Positions 1 to 58,185 of a DNA stretch of 64,000 nt are shown in pieces. The stretch comes from Quercus robur (Eukaryota > Streptophyta > Magnoliopsida > Fagales > Fagaceae): assembly GCF_932294415.1 (NCBI RefSeq), contig NC_065539.1:48251001-48315000 (forward strand), read 5' to 3'. Position 1 is the first letter of the stretch; each line of letters starts with the position of its first letter. The notes under the pieces are model-generated. The model made no database searches. It was not told where the DNA came from and saw only the letters and a list, made by a program, of their open reading frames with translations. Both the position numbers and the translations under genes were made by a program.

Positions 1-2827
1 CAAGGAATTTCCCTGACGATACTCCAAAGGCACATTTGCTAGGATTCAGCTTCATGTGATACTGCCTCAACGTCTCAAATGTCTCCTGCAGGTCGTCTAG
101 ATGTCTTCCTTCGTCCTGGCTTTTCACTAGCATGTCATCTACATAGACTTCCACATTCCGCCCAATCTGCGGACGGAACATGTGGTTGACCAACCTCTGG
201 TATGTCGCCCCTGCATTCTTTAAACCAAACGGCATCACTTTATAGCAGAATAAGCCTTGACTGGTGACAAAAGATGTCTTCTCTTGATCAGCCTCGTCCA
301 TTCTTATCTGATTATATCCTGAAAAGGCATCCATGAAGCTAAGCAATTTGTGGCCTGCAGTTGAGTCTACTAACTGGTCAATGCGCGGTAACGGATAGCT
401 GTCCTTTGGGCAAGCCTTGTTCAGATCAGTGAAGTCCACGCACATTCTCCACTTGCCATTCGCTTTTTTGACCATTACTACATTGGCCAACCAATCCGGG
501 TAGTACACCTCCCGAATGAACTTTGCTACCATCAGCTTTTGAACCTCGTCCTTGATTGCATTATCTCTCTCAGGGGCAAACACCCTCTTCTTTTGCCGCA
601 CAGGCTTGGAGGAAGGACATACATTCAAACGGTGGGTAATGACACTAGGGTCTATACCCGGCATATCCTCGTGACTCCACGCAAACACGTCGATGTTTTT
701 CTTCAAAAACTGGACGAGGTCTGTCTTAATCTTCTCTTCTAAATCTGCTCCCACCCTGGTACACCTCTCAGGGTTATCTTCATCCAAGGAAATATCTTCC
801 AATGCTTCAGTAGGTTCTGCTACAACCCTCTTTTCTTCAATGTTCATTGCTTGAACTTGTTCATCCATGGCCAGCATGGCCAAGTAACACTCTCTTGCTG
901 CCAGTTGGTCACCTTGTACCCGTCCTACCCCGTGTTCTGTTGGAAACTTGACTGATAAGTGGTAAGTAGAGGTAACAGCTTTCCAACTATTCAAAGTTGG
1001 CCTCCCAATGATGGCATTGTAAGAGGATGGACAATCTACCACAAGGAAGTTCACATCCTTGGTAATCTGTTGTGGATATGCCCCCACTACCACGGATAGG
1101 GAAATGGTACCCACTGGTTGCACCTTCATCCCCCCAAAGCCTACTAGGGGGGAGTTCACTGGACGGAGCTGGTCTCGTCCTAATCTCATCTGCTGAAAGG
1201 CTGGATAATACAAAATGTCTGCTGAGCTTCCATTGTCCACAAGCACTCTTCTGGTTGTGTAGTTTGCAATTAGTAAAGAGATGACGAGGGCATCATCATG
1301 AGGGTGATGAATTCTGTCGGCGTCCTCGTCCGTAAAAGTGATTGCCCGCTCGTCCGTGGATCTTGCTCTTGGTGATCGTCCAGAAAGTTGGACGCTCTGT
1401 ACTACCTTCAAGTATGCTTTCTTGGACTTGGACGACTGGCCAGTTGTACTTCCTCCAATGATGACTCTTATCTCCCCGAGTGGTGGTCGCGATGAATCTT
1501 CCATCTTTCCCTTCTGTTTCTCGTCCCTCTGGTCTCGTCCAAGGAAACCCCTTAACTTCCCTTGCCTTATGAGATTTTCAATTTGCTGCTTCAAGTCAAA
1601 ACACTCGTCCGTGTCATGACCATGATCCCTATGGAAGCGACAATACTTGTTCCTGTTACGCTTATTGGGATCACCCTTCATCTTCTCTGGCCACTTCAAG
1701 GAAGGATCATCCTTGATTTGCATAAGGACTTGCTCAAGTGGGGCGTTTAAAGGGGTATACTGCTGGTTCCGTACTGGAGGGCCTGGCTTCTTACTTTCTC
1801 GATCTCTCCTTTCCTCCATCCGTCCCTTCTTTGGACGAGTACCTTGCTCATGCTGACGACTGGGATTTGCGTCCATTCTCTCGGACCTCTTCCTCTTCTT
1901 AGCAATGATTGCATCTTCTGCATTCATAAAATTCTGAGCCGAATGGACGAGTTCGGCCATGGACTGGGGCTCTTTTTCATAGAGCTTGTGTATAAACAGA
2001 TCTGAATTCACCCCATTGTGGAAGGCTGCCAGTAGAAGCTTATCATCTGCTTCGTCCACACTGAGAGCTTCTCTGTTAAAACGGGTGATAAATGACCGAA
2101 GGCTTTCGTTCTCTCTCTGCTCTATTGTCAACAAACTGGACGAGGAACGCTTGTGCCTTTGTCCTCCAATGAAATTGTTAACAAATAACTTGCTCAACTC
2201 TTCAAAAGAACTCACCGAATTCGGAGGTAGTTTGCTAAACCAAACTCGCGCCGAACCCTTAAGGGTGGTTGGGAAGGCCCTACACATTATTTCATCAGGC
2301 ACTCCTTGAAGATGCATGGTGGTTTTGAAAGTGGCTATATGATCAAACGGGTCACGTGTTCCATCATATGAATCCAGAGAAGGCAACTTGAACTTTGATG
2401 GTAGTGGGTGACCGTTGATGGAAGCCGTAAAGGGAGAATCTGTCCTGTGAACCAAGTCTTCTATCGGATTCGCCTTTTTCATATTCTCCTTCATTTCCTC
2501 CATAACTCTCTTCATTTGGTCCATTTCTTCCTTCAAGTATGGTACCGTTCGTGAAGTGGTGCCTCTGAACTGACTTCCAACTTCGGTGTTCTCTCTTCCA
2601 CCGTGACTATCTGTTTGTCTTCCTTCACGTTCTTCTTGTGTTTGCCTCCTCATATTAATCTCCATTCGCAATTCTTGGTTTTGGCGAGTCAACTCCGCCA
2701 TAGCGTCTGCCATAGATTGTGCTTGTTGGGCAGATGACTGCATGACCGGCGCAGACTGGCGATCGCGATGCGGGTTGCTGCTACCCTGATGGCCTGGGCT
2801 AGTAGCCCGTGATCTAGTCCGAACCAT
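1..2827 (-). CDS. Ty3-type retrotransposon gag-protease-RT polyprotein, partial (runs off left edge)
   Basis: Reading the minus strand from ATG at 2827 gives about 942 codons with no stop up to position 1, so the frame is open and cut only by the window edge. Order: basic N-terminus (MVRTRSRATSP), glutamine-rich coiled stretch, retrotransposon gag domain (about 2450-1900), degenerate zinc knuckle (CRFHRDHGHDTDEC, about 1640-1590), aspartic protease with VDNGSSADIL (about 1245-1205), then reverse transcriptase with its YVDD catalytic motif (about 147-126). RNase H and integrase would lie left of the window. The ATG lies 39 bp inside the primer-binding site, as expected for gag. A gag-pol in one frame with a DNGSS protease resembles Tat-like Ty3 elements; that lineage call is inference. 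The intact frame suggests a young copy. Confidence 0.9.
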   Translation of the reverse strand, partial: MVRTRSRATSPGHQGSSNPHRDRQSAPVMQSSAQQAQSMADAMAELTRQNQELRMEINMRRQTQEEREGRQTDSHGGRENTEVGSQFRGTTSRTVPYLKEEMDQMKRVMEEMKENMKKANPIEDLVHRTDSPFTASINGHPLPSKFKLPSLDSYDGTRDPFDHIATFKTTMHLQGVPDEIMCRAFPTTLKGSARVWFSKLPPNSVSSFEELSKLFVNNFIGGQRHKRSSSSLLTIEQRENESLRSFITRFNREALSVDEADDKLLLAAFHNGVNSDLFIHKLYEKEPQSMAELVHSAQNFMNAEDAIIAKKRKRSERMDANPSRQHEQGTRPKKGRMEERRDRESKKPGPPVRNQQYTPLNAPLEQVLMQIKDDPSLKWPEKMKGDPNKRNRNKYCRFHRDHGHDTDECFDLKQQIENLIRQGKLRGFLGRDQRDEKQKGKMEDSSRPPLGEIRVIIGGSTTGQSSKSKKAYLKVVQSVQLSGRSPRARSTDERAITFTDEDADRIHHPHDDALVISLLIANYTTRRVLVDNGSSADILYYPAFQQMRLGRDQLRPVNSPLVGFGGMKVQPVGTISLSVVVGAYPQQITKDVNFLVVDCPSSYNAIIGRPTLNSWKAVTSTYHLSVKFPTEHGVGRVQGDQLAARECYLAMLAMDEQVQAMNIEEKRVVAEPTEALEDISLDEDNPERCTRVGADLEEKIKTDLVQFLKKNIDVFAWSHEDMPGIDPSVITHRLNVCPSSKPVRQKKRVFAPERDNAIKDEVQKLMVAKFIREVYYPDWLANVVMVKKANGKWRMCVDFTDLNKACPKDSYPLPRIDQLVDSTAGHKLLSFMDAFSGYNQIRMDEADQEKTSFVTSQGLFCYKVMPFGLKNAGATYQRLVNHMFRPQIGRNVEVYVDDMLVKSQDEGRHLDDLQETFETLRQYHMKLNPSKCAFGVSSGKFL

Positions 2828-2865
2828 CAACCCTTTGTCACGAAGAAACAAATTGTGAAACAATC

Positions 2866-2884
2866 GTTCCCACAGACGGCGCCA
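2866..2884 (-). other. Retrotransposon primer-binding site
   Basis: On the minus strand the LTR end ATCATCA is followed by GT and then TGGCGCCGTCTGTGGGAAC. The leading TGG matches a tRNA 3' CCA end, as in a standard LTR element PBS. The initial TGGCGCC is shared with other Ty3 elements, but I did not identify the tRNA. Confidence 0.75.
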
Positions 2885-3102
2885 ACTGATGATTCCTTGG
2901 TTATCAGTGGGTTGATAAGACTTGAACGTTGATCTTCGGGCTATCTCCTGTAATACCAAAGACACAGAATCAGAGGGGACCGGTGTCGACCGGCCAAAAA
3001 TCCTCCGATGATCAAGTTAGTTATTTGGAACTCTCTGTAACGAAGAAGTGTTCTCTTAAAAGTAAGAAAGTGTCTGAATACCTTTTTCCTTCATCGAAGA
3101 AG

Positions 3103-3532: not shown

Positions 3533-5065
3533 TATGGACGAGTTATGGGTTTGGGGATTCTGTGACACCATCAGTAAATATTGCAGCACTCGAAGATTGA
3601 CCTCTAGATATAGGGATAAGCTCCTGTGCTCGAGGGTTTGGACAACAATGAAAAAGGGGACTGAGATCTTCCAAAAGGGGGTTAGATGGACTTGTGGTAG
3701 GGAGAGTAACCTTAACTTTTGGTTTGACAACTGGTCGAAGTTTGGAGCTTTAAGGCAGATCATACAATGCCCCATCTCTAGTGAGCTGATGAATTTGAAG
3801 GTAAAAGATGTTGTATCCGCTAATGGGTGGGATTGGTCTATTACTTCCTTTGAGTTCCCGGATTTAGTTAGGCAGGAGCTCTAAGCCATTCCGTTTGCTA
3901 TGGCATCCCGTGGGGCGGACAGGTTGACTTGGAAGGTGTCGGTTAATGGCATGTTCAATCTCGGCTCAGCTTACAAGATAGCCATTGACCAGGTTAATGT
4001 TGATTCCTTTAGGGGTAAGTGGATTTGGAAGTCTAAGGTGTCACCTAGGATCCAATCCTTTGTGTGGCTGTGTTACCATGAAAGCATTGGAGTGAAGGAG
4101 TGTCTCAATCGTAAGGGTATGCTTCTTGACACCCATTGCCCTCTCTATCATACTTCTAGCGAATCTATTCTCCATGCTCTTCACGATTGCATGGTGGTTA
4201 AGCATGAATGGGACCAGCTAGGTGAGAATCGGGTTAATAGGTCCTTCTTTAGTAGCAACCTTCAGGAGTGGTTGGAGGAGAATGGCACCAAGCAGCAGGT
4301 CATTGGTTGTCATGCTATTCCCTGGAGTACAATATTTCTATTTGCTATATGGCTTATTTGGAAGCACATGAACCAGGTAGTGTTCAAGGAGCAAAGGCTA
4401 AATCATGACTTAGCTAAGGAGATTTCTCAAAGGGCCTTAGAATACAATTTCTTTGCTAGACCTCAAAAGGAAGCTATCACGCGAATATATAAACCTGTCC
4501 GTTGGTGTAAGCCAGCAAATGGGTGGGTCAAATTGAACAAAGATGGATCCTCACTTGGTAATTCGGGCCGAGCAGGAGGAGGGGGTTTAATTCGAGATGA
4601 AGAAGGAAATTGGATAGTGGGCTTTGCGCGCAAGATTGGATCTACTACCAGCTTTCTTGCAAAACTTTGGGCTCTTTGTGATGGGCTTAATCTGTGTCTT
4701 AGTTACAATTTTGCTGCAGTAGAAGTAGAGATAGATGCTAAAGCTATTGTAGATGTCATCTCCAACCTGAACTACACTAATGTATTTGTCTCCCCTCTCA
4801 TGGATGATTGCAGGCTCTTGCTGTCTCGAATCCCTTAGATTCGCCTTACGCATTGCTATCGTGAAGCCAATAGGTGCGCTGATGGTCTTGCACGTCTAGG
4901 TGGTCTTCAAGCCACAGATTTTGTTATGTTTATGTGTTCGCCTGTGGACTTAGTTAAGCTGTTAGATTCTGACTTTAAAGGGTTGTACTTGAACAAGCTT
5001 TGCCCTGAGTTGATTTGTTCTTCTTAGTTTGTTTAATATATTCCACTTCCAAAAAAAAAAAAAAA
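3533..5065 (+). pseudogene. LINE ORF2 3' part (C-terminal region and RNase H), broken
   Basis: The reading frame resembles the region of plant LINE ORF2 after the RT domain (CSRVWTTMKKG, FWFDNWSKFG), then the zinc-binding-like RT-associated region, then an RNase H domain (KLNKDGSSLGNSGRAGGGG, about 4530-5020). It is cut by in-frame stops TAA at 3882 and TAG at 4836, after which the same frame continues (REANRCADGLARLG) to a stop near 5026. A 15-base A tract at 5051-5065 marks the 3' end. The 5' side is lost at the Ty3 LTR border, so the Ty3 element probably inserted into this LINE. Confidence 0.85.
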
Positions 5066-5213: not shown

Positions 5214-5312
5214 ATAATCAGAGGCAGAGGGTCTGAGACTGTGACAGTGAAGTGGCGGAAGGTTGCGGAACTGGAAGGTTGAGAATGATGATTTGGCCAC
5301 GAAACCTGACAT
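5214..5312 (-). pseudogene. Broken copy of the small membrane-protein gene (exon 1 only)
   Basis: Minus-strand ATG at 5312 begins MSGFVAKSSFS and aligns with exon 1 of the intact copies at 13513-13613 and 23193-23290. The tail still reads FTVTVSDPLPLIM, but in another frame, so an indel has broken it. The splice donor AT|GTACTAAC is the same as in the 23-kb copy, and intron-like sequence follows to about 5140. Exon 2 is absent: the LINE 3' end (5065) and the Ty3 element lie where it should be. It may sit beyond the left edge or be lost. Confidence 0.7.
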
Positions 5313-5983: not shown

Positions 5984-6617
5984 GGCCAAAATGGCCCATT
6001 AGCATTAATTTTTGAAATATTTAGCAACAGAGCACTGTTTCGGAAATAATTAGGGAAATACCACTTTTTCTGGTACTCGAGCTTGGTGAGCTCGAGTACT
6101 ATCTTTTCATTGGTCAAACATCTTCTCAAAAAAAAAAAAAACGCCGCTATAGGGCCCGAAAACGTCACTATAGGGCTTAAAAACGCCACTATAGGGCCTC
6201 TTGAACCTGTTATGGGACTCATAAAAAAATTTTGCAGGAAAACGCCGCTATAGGGCCCAAAAATGTCACTATAGGGATTAAAAACGCCACTATAGGGCCC
6301 CTTAACCTGTTATGGGGACTTATAAAAAAATTTTTTGCAGGAAAACGCCGCTATAGGGCCCGAAAACGTCACTATAGGGCCCCTTACCTGGTATGGGGGC
6401 TTAAAAACGCCGCTATAGGGCCCGAAAACATCACTATAGGGCTTAAAAACGCCACTATAGGGCTCCTTGAATATGAGGCGACAGTGGATTAAAAAAACAT
6501 GGTACTCGAGCTCACCAAGCTCAAGTACCAGAAAAAGTGATATTTCCCTAATTATTTTCGAAACAGTGCTCTGTTGCTAAATATTTCAAAAATTAATGCT
6601 AATGGGCCATTTTGGCC
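5984..6617. mobile_element. MULE-like non-autonomous element with long inverted arms
   Basis: Arms of about 115 bp are near-perfect inverted repeats, starting GGCCAAAATGGCCCATTAGC at the left and ending with its complement at 6617. The flanks are 10-bp direct repeats differing at one base: CTTAGTAATA (5974-5983) and CTTAGCAATA (6618-6627). That duplication length fits Mutator-like elements. No transposase is present; the middle is the CTATAGGG array. Confidence 0.85.
6141..6466. repeat. Array of CTATAGGG-containing units
   Basis: Eleven CTATAGGG words occur in about 325 bp, in a higher-order order of GCCG-CTATAGGG, GTCA-CTATAGGG, GCCA-CTATAGGG, with spacers CTTRACCTGTTATGGG and TAAAAAAATTTT between groups. 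Similar GCGGCTATAG words occur next to the CACTA terminus at 31497, so the array may derive from CACTA subterminal repeats. Confidence 0.85.
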
Positions 6618-13064: not shown

Positions 13065-13613
13065 TCAGACCAAGTCAAAGCCAAAGTCATTCATATTCGG
13101 AGTTGGTAGTTGAACTTGGACAACGACATCACCACCAGTACTGGTAAAGTTGCTGCCAGCAACTGTCGTGCCAGCATTGCTAGAATAATTTCTCCAATAT
13201 TTGCATAGCGCAGCAATGAGAAACATTAGGCTAATTATTGCTGCAGCGATTTTGACCACGCCCAAAATAAATTGTTCTTTCCTGTTAAAGAAAAATTAGA
13301 AAAAATATTAAAAAATATTTTTAATAATTATTTTAAGAAAGTTTTAATATTACTTCTATGAAAAATATAAAAAATTATTAAAAAAATCAATTACGTTTTT
13401 ATTTTCTCATAAAATGTTTTTAAAAATACTCCATAAACTAATACTCTTAGAGTATTCATCAACATTTTCAATAAAAAAAATTCGAATAATTTTAGTAAAT
13501 AGTAAATCTTACATGATCAAACGTGGAGGGTTTGCCATTGTGACAATGAAAGTGTGGGAAGGAGGCAGAACCGGAAAGCTAGAAAATGATGATTTGGGCA
13601 TGAAACCTGTCAT
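13065..13613 (-). CDS. Small single-pass membrane protein of unknown family, copy A (two exons)
   Basis: Exon 1 is 13613-13513 and exon 2 is 13281-13065, joined across a 231-bp intron with donor AT|GTAAGATT and acceptor TTTAACAG|G; the split codon gives Met34. The product is 105 residues: a proline-rich N-terminal part (MTGFMPKSSFSSFPVLPPSH), one hydrophobic helix of about 20 residues (IAAAIISLMFLIAALCKYW), then a tail with STGGDVVVQVQ and PTPNMNDF. The 23-kb copy has the same splice pattern and length; exon differences between the copies are mainly substitutions plus whole-codon indels, which suggests constraint on the protein. A TATA box lies about 60 bp upstream. I do not recognise the family; no signal peptide or enzyme motif is evident. 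Confidence 0.65.
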
Positions 13614-13670
13614 TGATAATTTGATATGAAATTGAGACTTGAGAGAGTTTGGGACATGATGACTTGATGA

Positions 13671-13680
13671 CTTATATAGA
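13671..13680 (-). promoter_or_regulatory. Candidate TATA box for small gene copy A
   Basis: Minus-strand TCTATATAAG lies 58-67 bp before the ATG at 13613, a suitable place for a core promoter with a short leader. Confidence 0.5.
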
Positions 13681-14048
13681 TTATAGATGTTATGATCTGA
13701 CACATTTTTTTAATTTTTAAAAACCAACCCACGCAACAGCAACTTCGTGGAAAGATGCCTGTCTTAATCTCACATATCGGTGTGCGACAAAGTAGCCAAA
13801 AGGAGTCCGCAATATATGTGCTATAGCCATAGATTTGGAATCCGACCAGGTACTACTAGCAATTAAAAAACAGCAACTCCATAGAATATTTGGAGTCTTG
13901 AAGTGCTTTGTAGTCAACGAAAACCAATCTTAATTAGTCTTGATGTCGAGCTACCGACCGTGGGAGAGACTCAAAGAGAGAGAGAGATAAGAACATGGGT
14001 GAATTGGCTACAGGGTAAATATAAATTGAAGTCGGTCACAATTTCAAC
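13681..14048. other. Upstream region of small gene copy A; no gene seen
   Basis: 13740-13785 is shared with the region upstream of the broken copy at 5.3 kb. A GAGA tract lies at 13977-13988. I see no coding sequence. Confidence 0.4.
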
Positions 14049-14165
14049 GTGAGTTTCAGTTAGCTTAGTTAGTAAAGTTTCTGATTGTTAAATAAAAGAT
14101 CTGAAATTCAATCTCCGTCTATATCAAAAACCGATTGGTATCTTAGCTTTATGATAGCTTATTGC
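14049..14165 (+). mobile_element. tRNA-derived SINE
   Basis: Begins GTTTCAGTTAGCTTAGTTAG with an A-box-like TTAGCTTAGTTAGTAAAG and later AAATTCAATCTCC in the B-box position, then ACCGATTGGTATC. It matches the SINE at 51192 along its length, so this is a real family. It ends at the left border of duplicate A. Confidence 0.55.
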
Positions 14166-14826
14166 TAAGAAAGGAAATAGATAATATATGAATTTATATG
14201 CTCTCGTCTGAATAATAATATTTTATTATTTTGATTTCGTTTTTTTTGTTTTTGTTTTTGTGATTTATGGTTCAGTAACCCTGCGAATATTTTTGTTTAC
14301 CTGTGTTTACGGTTCTTTGTGGTACAATCTGATTGAATAATTGAAAGAATTCATTTGTAAACCTGTGCAATCTATTGCTGAGTACGTTTAGAAATTTTGA
14401 TAATCTTGTAATCTTTCAACACTGTTTAACCTTGCGTATAATTTTTTTGACGAAACTGTATCATCTAGATTCAGTTTTGATGGTTGGCATTTAAGTAATG
14501 GGTTATTATTAAACTTTTCTTTACTTGACTTTTAAGTGAAATCTTATCTATAATGTTTGCAAGCCACTTGTTTGGCGTTGGTTTCTGAGTATATGAACGG
14601 CTTGATGTATGTGATTCGGACTGCACTATTATACTTTTGAATTTTGAGAAAACATGCATGTCGAGAAAGAAGCCATTCTTTTCTTTCGTGAAACCACGAA
14701 CGATTTGGGAAGAGAATCGAAAAAAATTGCAGTTTGCGGTGATGACCCAAGCCTTGTACCGCTTCGTGTCGATGAAGGAAAAAAAAGAAACAGGTTTCAT
14801 TAAAAGGTATGATTCTAGACTTCGTA

Positions 14827-15354
14827 TGTTGAGATAAATCCCGTCTGAATTAAATTAAATATAACTCAAGCAATAAAAAAAATAGAAATCTACAAAAGCG
14901 AAAAGAAAAGAAAAAAAGAAAAAAAAAATCAACCAACAAAAACATCATGAAATTACGTGGAAACCCCTTCAGTTTAGAGGGAAAAATCATGGGGCAAATC
15001 CGATCAATCCACTATAACAAAATAAAGATTACAACACTCAAATTATACACAAAACCTGAGTTCACAATAAATTGAAAAAATACAATAATATATTTAGGAA
15101 CAAATACAACATTACCACAAAACTCGATAGTAAAATCTTCCATTCTGAATATTTCAATTCTCTGTGATTGTAACACTCAAATAATCGTCCTAGAGAAAAC
15201 TTTCAATTTATCTTCTTTGTGTGTCTTGAACAAAAAAAAAAAATCACATTTTCTTTTTTCTCTCAGAGCCGCACAAAGTCCTAATCTTAAATCTTATTCT
15301 TTCAATCGGTTTCAAATCTATGTTTCAGTCTCTCTCTCTCTTTTTCTCTATATC

Positions 15355-15385
<31 letters not shown>

Positions 15386-15566
15386 AACCTCTTTTTCTCT
15401 ATATCATACGCACACAATATATTGCTTTAAATAAAGCATCTGCCCCCTGACACACTCCAAAACAATTAGGAGTAGGAGTCTTAAACTTGTAGACCACTGT
15501 TCACTTATTTCTAATTGAAATAGGATTTTTATATGGGCTGGACTTTAGGTGCCCGGCACCTCAACA
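14827..15566. mobile_element. Solo LTR (TGTTGAG...CTCAACA), 740 bp
   Basis: Starts TGTTGAGATAAATCCCG and ends GGCACCTCAACA. Duplicate B lacks it and reads GACTTCTGTACAATC at 19126-19140. The flanks CGTA (left) and CTATA (right) are decayed versions of the empty-site CTGTA. No PBS or coding region is present, so this is a solo LTR from recombination between two LTRs. Superfamily uncertain. It includes a long T tract at 15357-15382. Confidence 0.85.
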
Positions 15567-16490
15567 CTATACAATCTTTCTGTGTGCTGGAGTGGTATTG
15601 GTTGTGCAATCATTTTTGCCCACAGTGTACACTTAATGGGTTTTTTTTTTTTAAAAAAAAATTTGGTGTATAGAGACTATAGAGAGTTTGAAATAGGGGA
15701 GGTGCAATTATATCATTACTCTACTTTTCCACCCAGCCTCAAGAAGTGTCCAAACAACTCCTCATTTTTTGCCTTTAACTTTGGAATTTAAAGAAAATGA
15801 GAAATGTTAAGTTTATAATATTTTCACAATAAGATATAGTGATAAATTGTTATTAGTTCTAATTTGAATTCACAATTGAAGTTACTTTTCTATCCACTAA
15901 TTACAACTAATAACAATCTGTCATATTAAATTTATTATAAAAATGTTGTGAATATAATATTTTTTTTAAAAATTATGCGTATAGACAAGATTTTTTGACT
16001 CACAAAAAACAGATTGACCCAAACTCGTGTAAGTCTAGGTCGATTCGGGTTGAGTTTTGGGTCAGCCAAGTCATCCCGTTTTTAACAAATGAAAATTTTA
16101 TTTGTGCCGTATGTTCTTTCATTTTGTCTACAAACCCTACATTTCTTCATTTAATTCTTTGACTTTTCTTCCTTACTTCATCAGTTATCGTTACTTTTTT
16201 TTTTTTTTTTATACTTACTGTACATCAAAAACCACTACAAAATTTGTAGTTTTCACCCCTGCATCTTATAGCGAAAAAGATAAAATTTTCCTCTGCAAAA
16301 TTTTCTTTCCTAACCACTAAAGCCGATTAGGTTTATTTTTCACTCATTCTCCATATTTGCCTTTCTCTTAAATCTTAATTTCATTCATTAAAAAAAACTA
16401 GTCTTTACAAAATCCTAAATTTTCAAAATACCATAATCTTTCAATACATTTTTTTCATAAAATAACATGTTTTTTCTTGTTTGTGACATG

Positions 16491-17067
16491 AAATTTTTTT
16501 TTTGTATTTAGCTTTATTTTTGAAATATTTTAGTTAGTTGCCATGTTTGCAAAATTATTCAGCAAACTAGCATCTCAAGTCTTAGAAACTCGAGTTTCAT
16601 CTTAGAACTTATGTCTCTAAAACTCGAGTTGCATGTGGTGGCAATCTGATATGGAAAAAAAATCCACGTGGAACTCAAGTTTAAATACTCAAGTTCCTGC
16701 ATTCACCAACTATTGTTCTTCCTCCTCTGTTCGTCTTCTTCCTCTGTGGGTGTCAAGGTGAGTTCTTTCTTCTTCCTCTATTCTTCTCTTTCGTGGGTTC
16801 TTCTTCAAATTCTTCATATTCTTTGGATCTTCTTCTTTCTTCTTTAGATTCTTCATTTTCTTCTATGGAACTCAAGTCTTTGAGACTCGAATTCCAAGTG
16901 GCAAAAATCTCCATGTTAGCAATGAGAACTCGAGCCTTTGAGGCTCGGGTTTTGTCACTAAACTCGAGCCTCTAGGGCTTGAGATATTACTTTCATAAAT
17001 TGTTTCAAAGCCTTGCTTACTAACGATATAATTTCTATATATGATGCTAGAGGGCAAATATCCCTTA
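16491..17067. mobile_element. 577-bp insertion with ACTCGAG repeats, present only in duplicate A
   Basis: Flanked by ACATG on both sides (16486-16490, 17068-17072); duplicate B has one ACATG at 20158-20162 and no insert. The inside holds many ACTCGAG/CTCAAGTCTT words and a CCACGTGGAACTC motif, like the MULE-type element at 49149-50200. Subterminal sequences are only weakly inverted, so it may be a decayed relative. Confidence 0.7.
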
Positions 17068-17524
17068 ACATGTTTGGATGCTTTGATTGCATGACATGAA
17101 TCCATGACCATTAATGGTTCATAGATTGGGGTTTATTAATGTAATTTCATTTTTTAGAATGTAACTATGACCAAAGTCATTCTTAGATTTTATTTGTGAC
17201 CACAAAGCCTTGTAAAGTTATCTTATATCAAATGTAAAATTTAAATTTAATCTATAAAATGAGGACTTTATTTTATTACATGGTTTTCTTAACTTTTTTT
17301 TTTTCCTAAGATTAAATAAGTTACAGCTCTAATTGTGAACCTCTCAATCTAGGAGAACAATATCGGCGGTTGAACTGTCATTTTGAGAGGCAATAACGCT
17401 AACTCACCCATTCAAATGAGTTTGGTCCCAATAAAAATCAGTGGGCTAAGGCTGCAATCTCTCACACAGGGGAGGATCAATCCTTTGAGTATACACTAAA
17501 TGGAAGAGTCTTACTCAACTCTAT

Positions 17525-18221
17525 TGTTAGGGATTTTATCAAATCAAGGAGTAACAATGAGAGAACAAAATGAATACAACAAGTAAATAGAGATTAGTGA
17601 TTGACTTGGAGGCACAATTGAATGTTATCCTTAGACAATATTTGTCCCCACACACAAGTTGCTAAAAGGTTTCTACAAATTTGTCTCCATAATACAACCA
17701 AGCTTATTGAGTTCTACAAATAGAAATTTTGGAGAATACCCACAAGATTTCTTGTATTTCTTTGTAACTTACTATTTTCAAGTGAACATTAACCTCTATA
17801 TATACCCATAGAGTTATAACCCTTCAAAAGGTATGTATGGAGAGTTAAACTGTTTCATAAAATCATTCACAAGACTTGAAACATCTTCAACCTTTCTGAA
17901 CAGTCACTTGAAAATTCTACAGAAATTTTAGTTTTTCTAGTTTCGATTGGTCGAGAGGTCCTTTCAGTCGATTGAATGCTCTTTTCAATCGATCCAACAG
18001 GAATCAAATAGTGATTGAACCATCCAGAAACTCCAGGATTATTTTCTTACTATTTCGATCAATCGAGCCAAAATTTCGACCAATCAAAAATGCTAAATTT
18101 CGAATTTTCACTTAGAAAATTCCAGCTTGAATTTTCATTTTAATAACTTTATGAAAAAATATTCTCCAAACTCAAATATCATTATTACAACTTATCCATG
18201 TATATACCTATATATACAACA
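17525..18221. mobile_element. Solo LTR (TGTTAGGG...ACAACA), 697 bp
   Basis: Flanked by perfect 5-bp repeats TCTAT (17520-17524, 18222-18226). Duplicate B has the uninterrupted site at about 20610-20625. A TATA-like CTCTATATATACCC lies near 17800. No internal region is present. The body repeats TCGATTG/TCGATC words (17940-18070). Confidence 0.88.
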
Positions 18222-18482
18222 TCTATTGCACATGCTTGGACATACTCTCTCTCCCTTCCGTTACATCAAGTTTGCCTCCTTAATGTTATCAAAAAAAAAA
18301 AAGTTTGCCATTTTAACATTATGCTTATTATGGAAGAACTCATCTTATTTTATAGTTTCAACATTGAAGATATATTGTCATTATTTCTTCATCTGTGAGT
18401 GTTTGTTTATGCTTTTCAAATTTCAATATTTCTCTCACACAAACACTCCCTCTTTCCTTCATTTTTCAATTTTTATATGCTA

Positions 18483-21400
18483 GGAAAGGAAATAGATAAT
18501 ATATGAATTTATATGCTCTTGTCCAAATAATAATATTTTTTTATTATTATTTTTTTTTTTTCTGATTTGTGGTTCGGTAACTCTGCGAATATTTTTGTTT
18601 ACCTGTGTTTATGGTTCTTCGCGATACAATCTGATTGAATAATTGAAAAAATTCATTTGTGAACCTGTGCAATCTATTGCCGAGTACGTTTAGAAATATT
18701 GATAATCTTGTAATCTTTCAACACTGTTTAACCTTGCGTACAATTTTTTTGACGAAAATGTATCATCTAGATTCAGTTTTGATGGTTGGCATTTAATTAA
18801 TGGGTTATTATTAAACTTTTCTTTACTTGACTTTTAGATGATATCTTATCTATAATGTCTGCAAGCCACTTTGTTTGGCGTTGGTTTCTGTGTATATGAA
18901 CGGTTTGATGTATGTGATTCGGATTGCACTATTATACTTTTGAATTTTGAGAAAACATGCATGCCGAGAAAGAAGCCATTCTTTTCTTTCGTGAAACCAC
19001 GAACGATTTGGGAAGAGAATCGAAAAAAACTGCAGTTTGTGGTGATGAGCGATTAGTGATGACCCAAACCTTGTACCGCTTCAGCCCTCGGGTCGGGTTG
19101 ATGAAGGAAAAGGAAGAAATTTCTAGACTTCTGTACAATCTTTCTGTGTGCTGGAGTGGTATTGGGAGTGCAATCATTTTTGCCCACAGTGTACACTTTA
19201 TGTATGTAAAGTGTAAACTATACTATTTAATGGTTTTTTTCATAAAAATTGGTGTACAGAGAGTTTGAAATAGGGGATGTGCAATTATATCATTACTCTA
19301 ATCTTCCACTCAGTCTCAAGAAGTGGCCAAATAACTCCTCACTTTTTTGTCTTAAACTTTACTGTCTCCACTTAACCCTCAACCCAGTAAAATTCGACTT
19401 CAAGAACCTACAAACTCCGTTGAAACCAAAGAAAAACGAAAATTTCTATATTTACAATATTTTCACAACAAAATTTGAGTGGTAAGCTCTTATTAGTTTC
19501 AATTTGAAATCACAATTAAAATTACTTTTTTATCCATCAATAACAACCTATCATATAAAATTTGTTATGAAAGTGTTGTGAATCAGATTTTAAACATACC
19601 ATTTCTCAAGAAGAATTATGTGTAGGCGGATTTTTTTGACCCCCAAGAAATGGATTAACCCAAACTCGTGTAAGTCCAGGTTGCTCGGGTTGAGTTTTGG
19701 GTCAACCAAGTCAACCCATTTTTGTGCCATATGTTCTTTCTTTTTGTCTACAGAACCTACATTTCCCTTCTTTTAATTCTTTGACTTTTCTTTCTTACTT
19801 CATCGGTTCTCATTACTTTTAAAAAAAAAAAAAAAATTTTATACTTACTCTACATTAAAATTTCTAATCTAGAGACGCTACAAAATTTTTAGTTTTCACC
19901 CTTACGCGACTCGTATCACCCCTTATAGTGAAGAAGAGAAAATTTTCCTCTGCAAAATTTTCTTTTCTAACCACTAAAGCCATTTAGGTTTATTTTTCAC
20001 CCATTCTCCACATTTTCACTTCTCTTAAATCTTAATTTCATTCATTCAAAAAAACTAGTCTTTACAAAACCCTAAATTTTCAAAATAAAAATCCTTTTCA
20101 AAACCATAATCTTTCAATACATATTTTCATAAATAACATGTTGTTTTCTTGTTTGTGACATGTTTGGATGCTTTGATTGCAAGACATGAATCCATGACCA
20201 TTAATGATTCATACATTGGGGTTTATTGATATAATTTTATTTTTTAGAATGTAACTATGACCAAAACCATGTAATTCTTAGATTTTATTTAGGACCACAA
20301 TGCCTTGTAAAGTTATCTTATATCAAATGTAAAATTTCAATATAATCAATAAAATGAGGACTTTATTTTATTGCGTGGTTTTTTTTCCCCCCCTAAGATT
20401 AAAATAAGTGACAGCTCTAATTATAAAATTCTCAATCTAGGGAGAACAATATCATCGGTTGAATTGTCATTATGGAAGGCAATAACACAATCTCACCCAT
20501 TCACATGAATTTGGTCCCAATGAAAGTTAGTGGGCTAATTAAGGTCACAATCTCTCACACAGGGGAGGATCAATCATCCAAGAATACACTAAATGGTAGA
20601 GTCTTACTCAACTTTCCTACACATGCTTGGACCAGCGGCAGCTCTAGAAATTTTTTTATGGTGATCACTAATAAATTTAAATTATATAAAATCTAATAAA
20701 GTAATAACTTGAATATTTGCTACAACTAACAATCAAGTCAAGTCGCTAAAGAGAGCAAAATTGTTGCGACTGCAAAGTCAAAAAGAGTATAACTATCGTC
20801 ACCATCAAGAAGAACTCACAATTACAATATTTTTCTTGGTACCATTTTTTAAAGAAAAATGAAATTAGAGATTATTTGATTGAATAGGTTGAACAAGCTA
20901 CAAATTTGAATGATTAGTGATTTTTATCTTTTTGTTTTATAATAGGCTTTTTGTTGAATAATTTGTTCACTTGTTGTTATTTGGTTTATGTTTGTTGTTA
21001 TTTAAGCTAATATTTATTGTTGTTATTTACGCTTTTTTCTTTTATTTATAATAGGGATTAAGGATTATGTTTGGGGATAGAATTAATTTTGGAGTAATAC
21101 TACGTCTATAACATTTTTATAATAAATCTTATGCAAAAAACTGTTATTGGTGGGTAAAAAAATAATATCAATATTGGAGTCAAATTAGAATCAATAATAG
21201 CTTACCACATTGGATTTGTTGTGAAATTATTGTGAAAATGTTGTGAATATAACATTACTCTTATTTTTGTTGAACCCAAATTTTTGTAATTCTCAAGTTA
21301 AGGTATTCAACATTTTTATTAGGGTGATCACAATAAATTAGTTTAGCATATAATATTTTTTTGAAAAATGTATATATACATTTTTTTTGCAAGTCAGGGT

Positions 21401-21655
21401 GGTCCTGTGACCAGCCTGGCTTGCATGTGGAGCTGCCAAGGCTTAGAGTCTTGGACATACTCTCTCTCCCTTCCGTTACATCAAGTTTGCCTCTTTAACA
21501 TTATGATTAATATGGAAGAACTCATCTTATTTTATAGTTTCAACATTGATGATATATGATCATTTTTTCTTCATCGGTGAGTGTTTGTTTTAGCTTTTCA
21601 AATTTCAATATTTCTCTCACACAAACACTCTGTCTTTCCTTTATTTTTCAATCTT
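18483..21655. repeat. Tandem segmental duplication, copy B
   Basis: Second copy of 14170-18480, head-to-tail and directly adjacent. It lacks copy A's two solo LTRs and 577-bp insert, and carries its own hAT-like insertion at 20633-21448. The open frame MHAEKEAILFFRETTNDLG at 18957 matches copy A at its start but diverges later, so a protein product is doubtful. Confidence 0.9.
20633..21448. mobile_element. hAT-like non-autonomous element in duplicate B
   Basis: Flanks are 8-bp repeats GCTTGGAC (20625-20632) and TCTTGGAC (21449-21456), one mismatch. Duplicate A has the empty site at 18234 (CATGCTTGGACATAC). The ends share inverted GGCAGCTC (CAGCGGCAGCTCTAG at left, GGAGCTGCC near the right end), but the outermost 4-11 bp do not pair well. 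Eight-base duplication suggests hAT. An AT-rich MITE-like segment (21085-21260) lies inside. Confidence 0.72.
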
Positions 21656-22887
21656 ATTTTTTTTTCTTTCAATAATCTCTTCATAGGCAACTAAAGCCTG
21701 GCGAGGGCCTTCACCTTTTATTCTTTCCTCTAAGGCCCATTTTCTCTTCTTAGGATGTGTTTGAATACCACTTATTTGTTGAAACTGAAAAATTATTGTT
21801 AAAAGTATTGTAGATAAAAGTAAAAGTTAGTTGAAATAGTATAGTGAAGCCCATGAATAATGCCAAAAAGTACAGTGAGGCTCATGAATAGTAACAAAAA
21901 TAAGCTGAATAATGAAATAATTTTAATTTTTCATTTCAATCCAAACACAGACTTAATCATGCTTTTGCTTGGTATTTGAATTAGATAACGGATGCTTTGA
22001 TAGCCATCGACGATCTTGACGTTATTTTTTTATTTTCATCCAAACCCCAATAATATTAAGGCCAAATTAGTTATTGCATATTAGGGATTCAGGTTAAGAA
22101 CAATCTAGTGTTATGTTTTTAGTACAGAGTATAGTACCATGATTTTTCTTTAATAAACCATCAAGTCATCTAATTTCTTTTTCTTTTTCTTGGTTTATGC
22201 TTTTGGCCTCTCTAAGTTTAAATCCTGATTCTGTTTCTGTCTACCATGATCTTTCTTTAATAAACCCTCAAGGCCACTGATTAATTGGGTCATTTTCTTT
22301 TTTATATTTATTCTACATGTATATATCCGTTTATTTTTTGAAAGCCAAATAGTTGTATTCATTAACTGCTAAACCCCAATACTATCAGATAAGAGTTGAG
22401 CCTGTAAAACAGACTAGCCAAATACAATAAGGAGAATAAATGGATTTTGCATATCTTGCTAGTACTTGCTGGTTGCCACCCCGACGCGTTATGTAACAGT
22501 TTAAAGTGTTGAAATCTTGGCAGCAACAGTCGAGCTATTGTATTGATGAACCAAATTCCCATACCACGAAAAATCCTCCTGACTTGACTGAAGTGCAGGG
22601 TAATAAATTTGTTTTGAATTTTAATAAGAATTTATTCAATGAAAAAGGGAATTACAAGTTTACAACAAAACAAATCTACACGATATATAACAAGCATAAA
22701 AGCTGTGCAAAGCTCACACCGTGCATGGTACCCTTTTTAACTATGCATAACCAACAAGATTCCAAAAAAGAAAAAGTGTAACCAACATAAACAGAGCATG
22801 GAAACTCTACGTGTGATGCGAGATTTTACTCTATGCATGAACTAAAAATTATGTACATGTACGGTATATACCGTATATTTGTCATTA
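21656..22887. other. Intergenic, including a 200-bp MITE and the 3' flank of small gene copy B
   Basis: A MITE-like inverted repeat lies at about 21755-21955 (GGATGTGTTTGAATACC left, TCCAAACACAGACTTAATC right). From about 22612 to 22860 the sequence matches 11041-11114 and 11668-11808 downstream of copy A. No other gene is evident. Confidence 0.5.
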
Positions 22888-23290
22888 TCAGATCGAGGCT
22901 AAGGCAAAGTCGGTCATATTCAGAGTTGGAGGTTGAACTTGAACAACAACGTCACCACCAGTACTGGTAACGCTGCTGCTGACAACTGTTTGGCCGCCGT
23001 TGCTGAAATAATTACTGATCCAATACTTGTATAGTGCAGCGATGAGAAACAGGAGGCTAATTATTGCTGCAGCGATTTTGACGCCCAAAAGAAACTGTAT
23101 TTCTTCCCTGTTAAAAAATGAAAAATATTAGAGATTTTTATCATTCAGAAAAAGTCGAACAACTACCTTAGTAGAGATATTAATGTTAGTACATGGTCAC
23201 GGGCGGAGGGTTTGCGATTGTGACAGTGAAAGTCGTCGAAGGAGGCTGAACTGGAAGGTTTGAAAATGGTTTTGGCACGAAACCTGTCAT
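22888..23290 (-). CDS. Small single-pass membrane protein of unknown family, copy B (two exons)
   Basis: Exon 1 is 23290-23193 and exon 2 is 23107-22888, joined across an 85-bp intron with donor AT|GTACTAAC and acceptor TTAACAG|G; the split codon again gives Met. The product is 105 residues, with start MTGFVPKPFSNLPVQPPS, one hydrophobic helix (IAAAIISLLFLIAALYKYW) and the tail STGGDVVVQVQPPTLNM. Against copy A the helix and tail motif are nearly unchanged, and indels are whole codons. The intron is much shorter than copy A's. Upstream there is only an (AT)n tract at 23404-23428. Probably membrane-anchored; function not recognised. Confidence 0.65.
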
Positions 23291-23542
23291 TGATAATTTG
23301 TTATGAAGAGGAGGAAAATATATTCGATCGAACACGAACTTGTAGAAGTTTTTTATTTTATTTTATAACGACCTTGAAGAAGTTTGGACATGAGAGGGAT
23401 AAATATATATATATATATATATATATATTAAGTTTAGCCACAGATTTTTTTCTAACTTTATCACAACTTTGCTTCGTACCGACTCGTGAGTGGTGAAATC
23501 ATGAACTCACATAAACCCATTATTTTATTTGAAAAATAATAT

Positions 23543-25159: not shown

Positions 25160-28100
25160 TATTGATCCTCATGAACTGTCAAAATAGCTTCCAAAGCAAC
25201 CGAAGGGGAGTCCTCCATCCATACAATTTCATCATCAATATTTTTTGCAAATTGGGCTAGAGAATGCAAGACAGAGTTGGTTGTACGGTGCACACAGCCC
25301 ATTGTAAGAGTGGTTATCCCTGCTGCCATACATTTGACATCCTCATACAGGTGTCCCAACCGAGAAAACTTAGTTCATGAGCTGAGTATAGCCTTTATGA
25401 CCACAGAGTTGTCTCCCTCCACCATTATATCCGTGAACCCCGTGTCCACTGCAAACTCTAGTGCTTTTCTACATTGGAGGAGTTCGGCCTCCTCTGTATC
25501 TGCAACTGATGGTCCTATAACTGAAAAAGACGCCATAACTTCACCCTTCTCATTCCGGATTATAGCCCCGAATCCCAACACATGAATTTCCTAAAAAATG
25601 GCTACATCAAAATTGAGTTTAAATTAATGTTCAGGCGGCGGTACTCATCTCGAGCTCCTCACCATCATATTCGATACGGTGAGGTGGTCTTGTGAAGCTC
25701 TATACTCCTCCAGAAAAACAGAGGCTTGTTGCACTAGTTGAGCCGGGTCTTGTATTGCCCTTCCTATTCTAACCTTGTTTCGCTGTGTCCACAACATCCA
25801 AGCTTGCACCAGAAACATTTCAACTTCCTCCAAGGGCAATCTATGTATCAACACCTCCAGTAGTTGCAAAAATCCATCTTGGCCTCCTCCACACTTTTGT
25901 ATTCTCTTCATACTCCCTGCCCATACATCCACTGCCACAGTGCATTCCCATAAAACATGTAGAACCGATTCCATTTCTCTCTGACACAGCTCACAGGTGC
26001 TATCATCAATTACTCGTCTCCAGACAAGATTTTCACGGGTTGGGAGAATATTATGACAAGCCCTCCACCTGAAAATTTTTATCTTATTCAAAATTTTGAG
26101 TTTCCACAGCTTGCTCCACACTGGGTTGACATCCACTTCTTTAGAACACTCCCCTTGAGAGTCCGCTTCCTTCCCCAGCTGCTTTGCTAAATGATATCCA
26201 GATTTAACAGTGTACTTCCCCTCCCTGTTATGTAACCAAAACAACTTATCACTACTCAGCCTCCTACTCAGTGGTATTCGAAGAATGACGTCTGCATCTT
26301 CTGGATGGAATTTCATTTCCACCAATTATCTGTCCCAGGTCCGAGTTGTCCAATCAATCAGCTCCACCACCCTCCACTCCCACTCATTATCTTGTGGTGG
26401 GTGAATCACCATGTTGGTCGGGTGATTAGGAATCCATTTATCCCGAGTAACCGGAATGGCCGACCCATCTCCCACTCTCCAGCAGCTTCCTCTTCTTAAA
26501 ATTTCCTGAGCAGCCATTATGCTCCTCCAGACATAGGAGCTGTTTGGAGTCTCGCCCGCCTCCAAGAAATTGCACCTAGGAAAATATTTTGCTTTAAAGC
26601 ACCCATACAATAATAAGTTTGTTTCCTGCATTAACCTCCATCCTTGTTTGGCTAACATTACGAGATTAAAACTCCGGCTATCTCTAAAGCCCATCCCTCC
26701 CTCCTTTTTCGGTTTGGACAACAAATCCCAATTTCGCCATTGAATTTTCCTTTCATTGCCCACTTGTCCCCACCAGAATCTTGCACACATGGCATTTAGC
26801 TCATTACACAACTTCACCGGTAACTGAAACACCCCCATTGTGTAGGTAGGCACGGATTGTGCAACTGCTTTAATGAGCACTTCCTTCCCCATTCTAGATA
26901 ATAACTTACCCTTCCAGCCTTATAATTTTTTCCAAACTCTACCCTTGAGAAAGGAGAAAGTTTGGTACTTTGAGCGACCAATCAAGGTAGGTAGACCCAA
27001 GTATGACTCTAATCTGTCAACCTCCTTAACCCCCAATGTGCCTTTAATCCAATCCCTTTGCCTTGCCACCGTATTGCTACTAAAAAACACCGATGATTTT
27101 TCAAGGTTTAAGCATTGTCCAGATGCCAATGTATACAGCTGCAAAATCTCCGTAATTACTTTAACCTCTTCTCTAGTAGCACGGCAAAAGAGCAAGGAAT
27201 CATCCGCAAAGAGGAGGTGGGAGATGCTAGGAGCTCTACGGCATATCTTTACACCATGTAGCTTATCTTCCAATTCAGCTTTTTTCAATAATGAGTTAAA
27301 TCCTTCTACACATAGAAGAAACAAATAAGGGGACAATGGGTCTCCTTGGCGGAGCCCCCTAGAGGGTTTGATGTTACCATATGATTTACCATTAATACAA
27401 ACAGAGAAAGAAGGCGTGGAGATACAACTTATTACCCGGTCAATCCAAAACTTGGAGAAACCCAATTTTGTCATAATGCCTTTTAGGAAGGCCCACTCCA
27501 CCCGGTCGTAGGCTTTATTAACATCCAGCTTCAAAGCAAATGAGACATTTTTTCCTTTTTTACGAGAGTGCATGGCATGTAGCTGTTCATAGACAACTAA
27601 AATATTATCTATAATAAGTCGGTCGGGTACAAAGGCACTCTGAGTGGGGGAGATCAACTGGGAGAGAACTTGCTTCAATTTGTTTGCCAAAACTTTTGAG
27701 ATTGTTTTGTAAATTACGTTACACAAGCTTATAGGTCTAAAATCTGAAATTTTTTCTGGGGATTTAGTTTTTGGAATGAGAACAATTTGAGTAACATTAA
27801 CCTCAGGTAACATAATCCCATGATTTAGAAAATCTAACACTGCATTAATCACATCATCACCAACCACATGCCAGAATTTTTGATAAAAGAGAGCATTCAT
27901 ACCATCTGGTTCAGAAGCCTTTGTTGGTCCCATTTGGAACACCGCTGCTTTTATTTTCTCCACACTAAAATCACTGGACAAGATATCCTACATTTTAGGA
28001 GTAATCCTGTGATGAATGGCCTCAAGACATTCCTCCATCCGATCACAATCACCTGCTTTGAACATGTTCTCAAAATAATTAATCGCCACTTCTGCAACCC

Positions 28101-29275
28101 AATCATTCTCCGTCACCCAGTTGTTTGCCTGGTCTTTAATCCCCTCAATAAAATTCCTCCTTTTTCTCTGTGATGCTTTTGAATGTAAATACTTCGTGTT
28201 TTTGTCTTCATGCTTCAACCAAGAAATTCTTCAACATTGCGCCCAATAGATTTCTTGTTTTAGCAAGAGATCATCCAACTCTTTGCTAGCTGCCAAAAGA
28301 ACAATTTTGCTGTCTTCAGTTGACTCTCCCTTACCAAGTGCCTCCACCTTAGCTTGGAGTCTTTTAATTTTTTCCACGTTTGGGTGAGTTCTAGTTGAAC
28401 CCCATGCATGCAAATCTACACCACACATTGCTATTCTCTCCTTTATTCTTGCCAAACCCGAATTTGCCCTTGCTTCTTTATTCCATGCATCGTGAATCAC
28501 TTGCTCACCATCCTCCCATAAAAACCACACCTCCTCGAATTTGAAACATCTTGAAAATCTTGGACAGATTTTTTGGCTTTCTTTATATGTAGAATTATTA
28601 GTGCATGGTTTGATGCATGAGAGAATAGGTGTGTCAGAGAGCTTGCTGGAAACTTTGCTCTCCAACTCTCCATAGCCATAGCACGGTCAAGATGCTACCC
28701 AGTGTTGGCAATGCCCAACCTTTTGTTGTTCCACGTGTAGGGATACCCGTGAAACCCCAAGTCATGTAATTGGCAGCGCTCCAATGCCTCCCTAAACTCC
28801 TCCATTTGCTTGTATGGTGGTGGCCTCCTGCTTAGTTTCTCTGAGGAGTGCAAGATTGCATTGAAATCGCCTATGCACATCCAAGGACCATCTACAAAAG
28901 ACAACAAGTGAGTTAGCAAAGCCCAAGATTTAAACTTCTGAGTCGATTTCGGCCACCCATAGAAGCAGGTCAGATACCAAACAAACCCATCTTCCTCTAT
29001 CACCTTCGCTAATACATGGTTTGCCGTGAAATTAATTATATCAAGGATCACCTCCTCTATCCATAGTAGTGCTAAGCCTCCCCCCGAATCAGGTTTCTTG
29101 ACTATGAACTGATTCTTAAAGGGCAAATTCTTACAATGTTTCTTGAAGCCATCCTTATCCAATCTTGTTTCCATCAAAAAGCAAACTGTGGGAGTTTGAT
29201 TCTTCACAATTTTGCGAAGATTACGAACTATTTAAGGATTCCTAAGCCCTTGGCAATTCCAACTTAATATCCTCA
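25160..29275 (-). pseudogene. LINE ORF2 (endonuclease, reverse transcriptase, RNase H), broken
   Basis: Begins MRILSWNCQGLRNP at 29275, the usual endonuclease start, then METRLDK, GGGLALLW and GDFNAIL. The RT domain at 27981-26920 is open for 353 codons and keeps RPISLCNVIYK, GLRQGDPLSPYLF and FADDSLLF (about 27220). A further 188 and 226 open codons follow (26892-26326, 26325-25645), then RNase H (GFGAIIRNEKGEVMASF, EGDNSVVIKAIL). Stops at about 29232, 28695, 28497, 26920, 26326 and 25645, plus frame changes in the endonuclease-RT linker, make it inactive. Confidence 0.93.
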
Positions 29276-29399
29276 TTGTGATCGGCAAGGGTGATCCATC
29301 ACCGGCCCCCACCGCTGTGTTCATAGAGTAGTCACCACGTGTCTTGTTGCGCTTCAGTGCTTGTACCATAAATTCACTGTGAACCTCCTCATCCACAGT

Positions 29400-30570
29400 C
29401 TAAGCTACTCCTCTCTTCCCCAAAATTGAGCTCGCCACCCCTTCCTCTTCTTTCCCAGACCCACACTCCATACATGGCACTCTAGTCCACTTAGGCCTGG
29501 CTTTGTCCAGCTTGGTGCAGCCATTAGTGACCCCATTATGATTTGCATTAACTCCACCTAGGGCATTCACCTCCTTTACGTTGGACTCACCCTCATTGAC
29601 TTCTAGATTTTCTATAACCGTACCACCTATCTCATCATTACTATAATTTATTCCCATAAAATCCGAATCAGCTCCTCCATTCACACTATTCCCTTTTGCA
29701 TGCGTTACGTATATGCTAGGGTTTGCTTTTACTGCTGTGTCCGCCGCCACCTGTTGACCATCCGCCCTACCCTCACTGTCGGACTCCATTCCTCCCTCTG
29801 AATCAGTCGGTGTAAACTGGGCCAATTCCTGTTTTGGAGGTGACCATGAACAAAGGCTAGTTGCACGCAACCAATCTCTGCAATGACAATGCACCTCTCC
29901 TTCCTTTTTGGACGCTGCATAGTGGCTTGCACAATGCTTGAGATCGTGCCCCAGTAATCCACAATAATGGCAGAATATCGGCAAACATTCATACTTATAA
30001 TTTACCCAACACTGCTCTTTGTCCAATCCCGTAACAAAGCCACCTCTCCAAATCGGCTTAGAGATAGGAAGTGCTACCCTCACCCTCATGAAAAGGTTCT
30101 ATACTTCTTTTTTAGATCTGTTTTCCATCGCTTCCACTGTACCCAATCTACTTCCAATCTCTTTGGCCACCTTTGGAGATATCATATCAAAGGGAGCCCC
30201 CCAAATCTGGACCCATAGTGACGCTGTATCAAACTTCACATTCGCTACCGTCATACCCTTTTGCCAATGCCGGAGCATCAGTGCTTGATTGTCAAAAGAC
30301 CACGAACCTCCTCAAGGAATTCTTTCCATGTTGAATTCCGTCTTGAACTTGAACTGAAATAGATTGGCACCCACCTCAACGATCTGTACTCCCTCTTCCA
30401 GCCCCCATGCTTTCTTCAGAGTGTACTGAGCCGCTTTTTTATTGAACGGTTTGCAAGTTAGAAATTTCCCCACCAAGCTTTGAGTGCAACTCTCAATTTC
30501 TTCTTTTCATCCTTCGTCAAAAATTGCTATTACCTCTTCTTCTTCCGTGGTTAGTTTCATATTACTCATA
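29400..30570 (-). pseudogene. LINE ORF1 (DUF4283-like and CCHC zinc knuckle), broken
   Basis: Starts MSNMKLTTEEEEV near 30570. The N-terminal half fits the DUF4283 region of plant LINE ORF1 proteins (KPFNKKAAQYTLKKAWGLE, later WVQIWGAPFDMISPKVA). A zinc knuckle CHYCGLLGHDLKHC follows (about 29990-29930), then an acidic low-complexity tail. Stops after residue 19 (FDEG), after ERIP and after KKEV break the first half; the last 229 codons (30089-29400) remain open. Such ORF1 products bind element RNA. Confidence 0.85.
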
Positions 30571-44978: not shown

Positions 44979-45012
<34 letters not shown>

Positions 45013-52718: not shown

Positions 52719-52760
52719 ATGACATGCACTCAGATTTATTCCAAATTACATCTAAGATAG
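52719..52760 (+). promoter_or_regulatory. Upstream ATG overlapping the PPR start
   Basis: An ATG at 52719, five bases before the PPR start and in another frame, opens 13 codons and ends at TAG 52758-52760. If in the mRNA it could lower initiation at the main ATG. Confidence 0.4.
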
Positions 52761-58136: not shown

Positions 58137-58160
58137 ATGAACTTCAGTGAAGCAATTTGA
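58137..58160 (+). promoter_or_regulatory. uORF upstream of the J-protein start
   Basis: ATG at 58137 in the second leader exon encodes MNFSEAI and stops at TGA 58158-58160, 25 bases before the main ATG at 58186. It is in a different frame from the main coding region. Confidence 0.5.
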
Positions 58161-58185
58161 GTCAGGTTCTGGTTCTGGATTAGTG

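Follow-up and report, generated by a model that had tools for sequence, protein, structure and literature searches.

This study examined two short genes, copies A and B, in a 64,000-nucleotide window of the Quercus robur genome (C6:48251001-48315000), and the 785.7-Mb, 42-contig plant assembly was searched for their relatives. Both genes lie on the reverse strand, A at positions 13065-13613 of the window and B at 22888-23290, and each comprises two exons that encode 105 residues and meet within a methionine codon split AT/G. Exon 1 of copy A (13513-13613) opens with ATG and ends in phase 2 after AT; a 231-bp GT-AG intron follows (13282-13512, GTAAG...AACAG), and exon 2 (13065-13281) carries the helix, the basic juxtamembrane residues, the tail, and the stop codon. 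The gene model of copy B consists of exon 1 (23193-23290), an 85-bp GT-AG intron (23108-23192, GTACT...AACAG), and exon 2 (22888-23107), in which a helix was predicted and the remainder of the structure model was of low confidence. The starts, splice sites, and stops are intact in both copies. The first-pass annotation of this DNA had reported two loci that splice into 105-residue proteins and differ greatly in intron length, and its coordinates were exact. A and B share 70% protein identity and match each other in the window at E values of 2e-23 (query A) and 9e-25 (query B); as had been described, the helix and the STGGDVVVQVQ tail are nearly unchanged between them and the exon indels are whole codons. 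There are four such one-codon indels, two being insertions in A and two others in B, and because they cancel out, the equal length of the two proteins is a coincidence. A and B probably encode single-pass membrane proteins.

The two genes belong to an array of six copies (A-F) at C6:48.23-48.27 Mb, for which the flank was read beside the window. In a protein search of the whole genome, all eight matches at E ≤ 0.001 fell inside C6:48.2286-48.2743 Mb. Copy D (C6:48228597-48229014) has two exons and 104 codons; its first ATG is changed, and an in-frame ATG lies four codons downstream. Copies E and F, which are near-identical to each other, consist of exon 2 alone, without exon 1. The third copy that had been noticed at 5.2 kb, copy C, is real and out of frame: a 99-bp exon 1 relic was found on the reverse strand at 5214-5312, and exon 2 was looked for in the window and not found. 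The exon 2 side of copy C holds non-long-terminal-repeat (non-LTR) retrotransposon sequence with an A-run at 5051-5065; this retrotransposon, at 3885-5065 on the forward strand, adjoins the relic and shows Pfam zf-RVT and RVT_3 matches in 3885-4835. Downstream of several array copies, at a distance of 1-4 kb, lie stretches that could be aligned with one another and were apparently noncoding when all frames were read; on this alignment, they mark the duplicated unit. A DNA search of the genome with B returned seven matches, only array copies and all within 46 kb, whereas a contrast repeat located between A and B (17068-17520) yielded 427 candidates genome-wide, and all of the 40 that were scored matched. 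Because the DNA matches of B are confined to its own array and the neighbouring repeat is dispersed, the copies behave as a tandem gene array, and a dispersed transposon part is unlikely. Between A and B, a 4.3-kb unit is tandemly duplicated (14159-18473 and 18473-21655), with blocks approximately 74-97% identical and a shorter second copy; its 17068-17520 part is the genome-wide dispersed repeat.

The copies named in the first-pass annotation are real, but the family proved far larger. With protein D at a looser threshold, matches formed clusters on C40 and occurred at individual places on C39, C3, and C2, and several of these places showed the same plan, namely a short exon 1, a phase-2 intron, an acidic pair, and a helix. 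The union of the genome protein and DNA searches comprised at least 56 loci when the threshold was E ≤ 1e-3, rising to 62 with a threshold of 0.01 and to 78 with one of 1; these counts are lower bounds (79 places were typed, one of them above E 1), and matches above approximately E 0.01 were taken as noise because many proline-rich chance matches occurred there. The 56 loci at E ≤ 1e-3 are distributed over eight contigs, with 23 on C5 (1.6-2.75 Mb), 13 on C2, eight on C40, seven on C6, two on C39, and one each on C3, C4, and C37. A later protein search identified, outside this union, two more C39 loci below 1e-3.

We compared the window array (five sequences) with 13 other members by using hhalign. 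The result was a probability of 98.1%, with an E value of 9e-14 and a score of 74.4, and the controls scored 18.9 (reversed columns), at most 16.8 (30 full shuffles), and at most 30.8 (100 block shuffles made separately within the N-terminal part, helix, and tail). Judged by this profile comparison, the window array is homologous to the other arrays of the family. When a tree was built from exon 2, the C6 copies clustered (0.998) with the C40 copies as their neighbours (0.930), and a further cluster held the C2 copies (0.946); the C5 group also took in members on C3, C37, and C39. The grouping of the C6 and C2 copies by place fits tandem birth and death. Two relatives, L030 and L031 (C40:42.70-42.73 Mb), are intronless and open, lie near intron-containing ones, and match continuously across the exon junction (query residues 9-94 and 9-91), suggesting that a spliced message once existed, the copying of which is the simplest explanation.

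DNA was read for 51 loci, comprising the six of the C6 array and L027, L028, L030-L037, L045-L061, and L063-L080 (L062 is part of L050). Two-exon models were obtained for 27 of them, 21 from the 22 loci tried first and then six of six; the model for L047 failed, the locus being without a GT donor. Downstream ATGs were used as starts for D, L054, L075, and L077, and L065 and L066 reach the end of the fetched stretch without a stop. The results revealed that all 27 models carry a phase-2 GT-AG intron just before the helix, with the split codon in one alignment column, which supports the two-exon coding family proposed in the first pass. Two features emphasised there were found to be narrower than the family. 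The identical length holds for A and B and is accidental, with 104 codons in D and 74-105 residues across the 25 models reaching a stop; the split methionine likewise holds for A and B and is local, being present in three of the 27 models, all C6 copies, with glycine in 18, arginine in four, and threonine and glutamate in one each. Intron lengths range from 79 to 314 bp. In the two columns after the splice site, the first is glutamate or aspartate in 25 of the 27 models, and the second is glutamate in 20 and glutamine in seven. An RKCKRN juxtamembrane stretch occurs in five.

TATA-like boxes precede the starts of both genes on the reverse strand, that of copy A by 65 bp (TATATAA, 13672-13678) and that of copy B by 77 bp (TATAAAA, 23361-23367); a TA repeat farther upstream of B also fits the pattern. 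Among the models with at least 110 bp of upstream sequence (12 of the 27 had less and were left out), 11 of 15 contained TATA(A/T)A 30-160 bp before the start, compared with a mean of 2.6 (standard deviation, 1.4; maximum, 7) in 300 rounds of shuffling.

Across the 27 models, the best 19-residue window has a Kyte-Doolittle mean of 2.3-3.4 and the hydrophobic stretch begins at residues 22-43; that each protein has a single helix was judged by eye. An AlphaFold model of exon 2 of B with A (two sequences) contained a helix at residues 2-37 and was otherwise of low confidence (mean pLDDT, 64.8). In every model, the 15 residues that follow the helix carry a more positive net charge than the 15 that precede it (before: negative in 19, zero in five, and positive in three; after: positive in 26 and zero in one), and a lysine, arginine, or histidine stands just after the helix. 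No N-glycosylation sequon precedes the helix in any of the 27; where present, sequons are on the tail side only. Under the positive-inside rule, which is well established, the basic flank after the helix would place the N-terminus outside and the tail in the cytosol. From these flanks, we infer that the hydrophobic stretch is an anchor rather than a signal peptide.

We then estimated the ratio (omega) of nonsynonymous (dN) to synonymous (dS) substitution rates. For A and B, the NG86 method gave a dN of 0.157, a dS of 0.377, and an omega of 0.42 (bootstrap, 0.23-0.75). Codon maximum likelihood, for which our own implementation rather than PAML was used, gave 0.49 for A and B (p = 0.022), 0.59 for A, B, and D (p = 0.035), and 0.52 for exon 2 of five copies (p = 0.008). 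Two of the seven subfamilies were significantly below 1, the C6 array at 0.57 (p = 0.027) and another at 0.52 (p = 0.044). When the seven groups were pooled with shared parameters (26 of the 27 models, L045 being excluded), omega was 0.65 (likelihood-ratio statistic, 16.7; p = 4e-5). The two-class model M1a placed 31% of codons at an omega of 0.09 and 69% at 1, and omega was similar in the N-terminal part (0.71), the helix (0.65), and the tail (0.63). By these codon models, purifying selection is mild and concentrated in about a third of codons when members are pooled, and the near-neutral majority fits a disordered tail and spacer. Model M2a was no better than M1a for the seven pooled groups, and positive selection was rejected on this ground; with no positively selected class, a strong arms race is disfavoured, even though the arrays are similar to defence-gene arrays. 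Gap lengths were multiples of three in 19 of 19 exon gaps and nine of 24 intron gaps (p = 9e-6; 19 models, five subfamilies), and in 17 of 17 exon gaps (p = 2e-5) after removal of two (15 and 27 bases) that were due to start-codon choice; intact models had been selected, which favours this result.

The comparison with known families yielded no relative. In Pfam-A, A, B, D, E, F, and six others (11 sequences) had no match at the shown cut-off, and 17 members gave a best E value of 0.0067, with different families for different members. What the best sub-threshold families (Cadherin_C_2, TM7S3_TM198, TAF8_C, and ODV-E18) have in common with the members is, by reading, only a hydrophobic helix flanked by basic residues or else a brief proline-rich piece. 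In the Protein Data Bank (PDB), the best E value was 0.11 for B alone (an antibody chain) and 0.48 for the 17-member profile (a histidine kinase). A known Pfam or PDB family was rejected on the Pfam-A value of 0.0067 and the PDB value of 0.11. A pattern-seeded search of prokaryote-genome and viral contigs found 407 and 28 stretches, respectively, that fit the pattern, and none passed tblastn. Four family peptide strings did not occur in open-access papers, and no title relevant to such a small membrane-protein family was found in the open-access literature; passages of the oak genome paper on tandemly duplicated genes mention no such family (PMC6086335). The earlier failure to place the proteins in a known family is thus upheld across Pfam, PDB, and open-access papers. 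Relatives may well be annotated in other plants as uncharacterised proteins.

The GLUTAMINE DUMPER (GDU) proteins of plants are small single-pass membrane proteins that have a cytosolic tail and are thought to be regulators. The family members resemble them in being small, from a plant, and probably single-pass, with a tail that would be cytosolic. The VIMAG motif is a feature of the GDU family; it was present in none of the 27 models, in a comparison by this motif only.

The best explanation, to which we assign a probability of roughly three in four, is that A and B belong, as intact members, to a large plant family of putative small single-pass membrane proteins that would have spread largely by tandem duplication and decay. 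Several findings weigh against it. The Biopython YN00 method gave 0.189/0.254 for A and B, a dN/dS of approximately 0.74; five of the seven subfamilies were not singly below 1 (0.82, 0.66, 1.06, 0.82, and a near-identical pair that was uninformative); and, when summed, the seven subfamily fits had a p value of 0.078. The selection on the protein claimed in the first pass stands within these limits, with A and B at 0.42 (NG86) and 0.49 (maximum likelihood) and the pooled members at 0.65 (p = 4e-5). Searches with single sequences link the window array only weakly to the rest of the family: query D reached L027 at 6e-4 and other places at 0.0058 or above, L027, the best such link to another array, gave no gene model, and the link to modelled members is that of L032 to copy F (E 0.009). 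The other 24 of the 51 loci are truncated, frameshifted, intronless, limited to exon 2, or otherwise decayed or unmodelled, and exon borders and starts were picked by eye, favouring in-frame gaps. Furthermore, four of the six array copies are damaged, C being out of frame without exon 2, E and F lacking exon 1, and D having lost its first ATG. This damage, the only moderately low omega of the array (0.57, p = 0.027), and the YN00 value would also suit an old coding family whose array members are recently dead relics, no longer functional and open only because they are short. We regard such relics as unlikely, since the starts, splice sites, and stops of A and B are intact, their four indels are all codon-sized at the omega values given above, and exon gaps are in frame across five subfamilies, in models chosen as intact, in contrast to intron gaps.

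The copies could instead form part of the interior of a transposable element or have been spread by one. Decayed relatives at L033, L037, L051, and L056 (C39, C3, C2, and C38) are near-identical though unlinked, introns included, as is the pair L053/L058 at unlinked places, and L055, an exon 2 on C3, is surrounded by repeat-like sequence; these cases suggest that mobile elements may have carried a few family copies. As an account of the family, this explanation was already disfavoured and is hardly credible. The DNA of B occurs only in its own 46-kb array (seven matches, against 427 candidates for the adjoining repeat), for which reason a dispersed transposon protein was rejected; and no transposon domain was present among the Pfam matches of 17 members, homology to a transposon-internal protein having been named in the first-pass annotation as grounds for abandoning its view. 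The C6 (0.998) and C2 (0.946) tree groups also follow place, although the C5 group includes members on C3, C37, and C39. A secreted or cell-death peptide precursor, with a late signal peptide and a released tail peptide, is very improbable as well. PROSCOOP-type plant peptide precursors are short, have few exons, lie in tandem arrays, and change fast, and the family shares the short length, few exons, and tandem arrangement; being small, two-exon, tandemly arrayed, and loosely constrained, it also resembles plant precursor families generally, and the tail-side position of its sequons agrees with a released tail. However, PROSCOOP-type precursors have an N-terminal signal peptide, whereas the hydrophobic stretch here is internal, beginning at residues 22-43, and the order of charges around it points to an anchor with the N-terminus outside.

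The window contains several further features. Four tandem units of approximately 100 bp rich in CTATAGGGCCC lie between inverted repeats of 124 bp (96% complementary) at 5984-6617, and the whole looks like a non-autonomous DNA element. A long open frame on the reverse strand at 2-3016 resembles, by eye, the beginning of gag-pol in a Gypsy-type retrotransposon, and non-LTR retrotransposon sequence lies at 25648-30098 on the same strand (Pfam RVT_1 in 26923-27987, the remainder by eye). Three host genes lie on the forward strand: a dehydroquinase/shikimate dehydrogenase gene at 38686-46733 (Pfam matches in 40086-40373 and 41000-41362, other exons by eye), a gene for a pentatricopeptide repeat (PPR) protein with an E motif at 52718-54619, and a gene for a DnaJ/DUF3444 protein at 58141-61083. 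A 327-bp direct repeat with 80% identity is located at 43058-43701, inside the dehydroquinase/shikimate dehydrogenase region.

For the family of small membrane proteins to which A and B would belong, the following arrangement can be proposed. A short proline- and serine-rich N-terminus would lie outside, the helix would serve as a signal-anchor that is not cleaved, and a serine-, glycine-, and asparagine-rich, probably disordered tail would lie in the cytosol together with the basic juxtamembrane stretch; the cysteine in the RKCKRN stretch could be acylated. The helix would pair within the membrane with a larger protein, and a short C-terminal motif (..IQLP.LN.. or ..VVVQVQ..) would contact a cytosolic partner, with the tandem arrays yielding many slightly different versions. 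That the members act in this manner as membrane-anchored regulators or adaptors is a guess, and a doubtful one. With slightly more confidence, but still tentatively and at less than even odds, we suggest that they constitute an undescribed plant superfamily of at least 56 loci in immune-receptor-like clusters, in which membrane microproteins with the N-terminus outside and the C-terminus inside, a conserved helix, and a C-terminal binding motif would be lineage-expanded membrane regulators. Short two-exon genes are easily overlooked by gene-finders. With its dozens of small membrane proteins in large tandem arrays and no Pfam model, the family could make up a sizeable unseen part of the plant membrane proteome and could readily supply functional variation. 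Any plant genome can be screened with the simple profile that the conserved intron and helix together provide.

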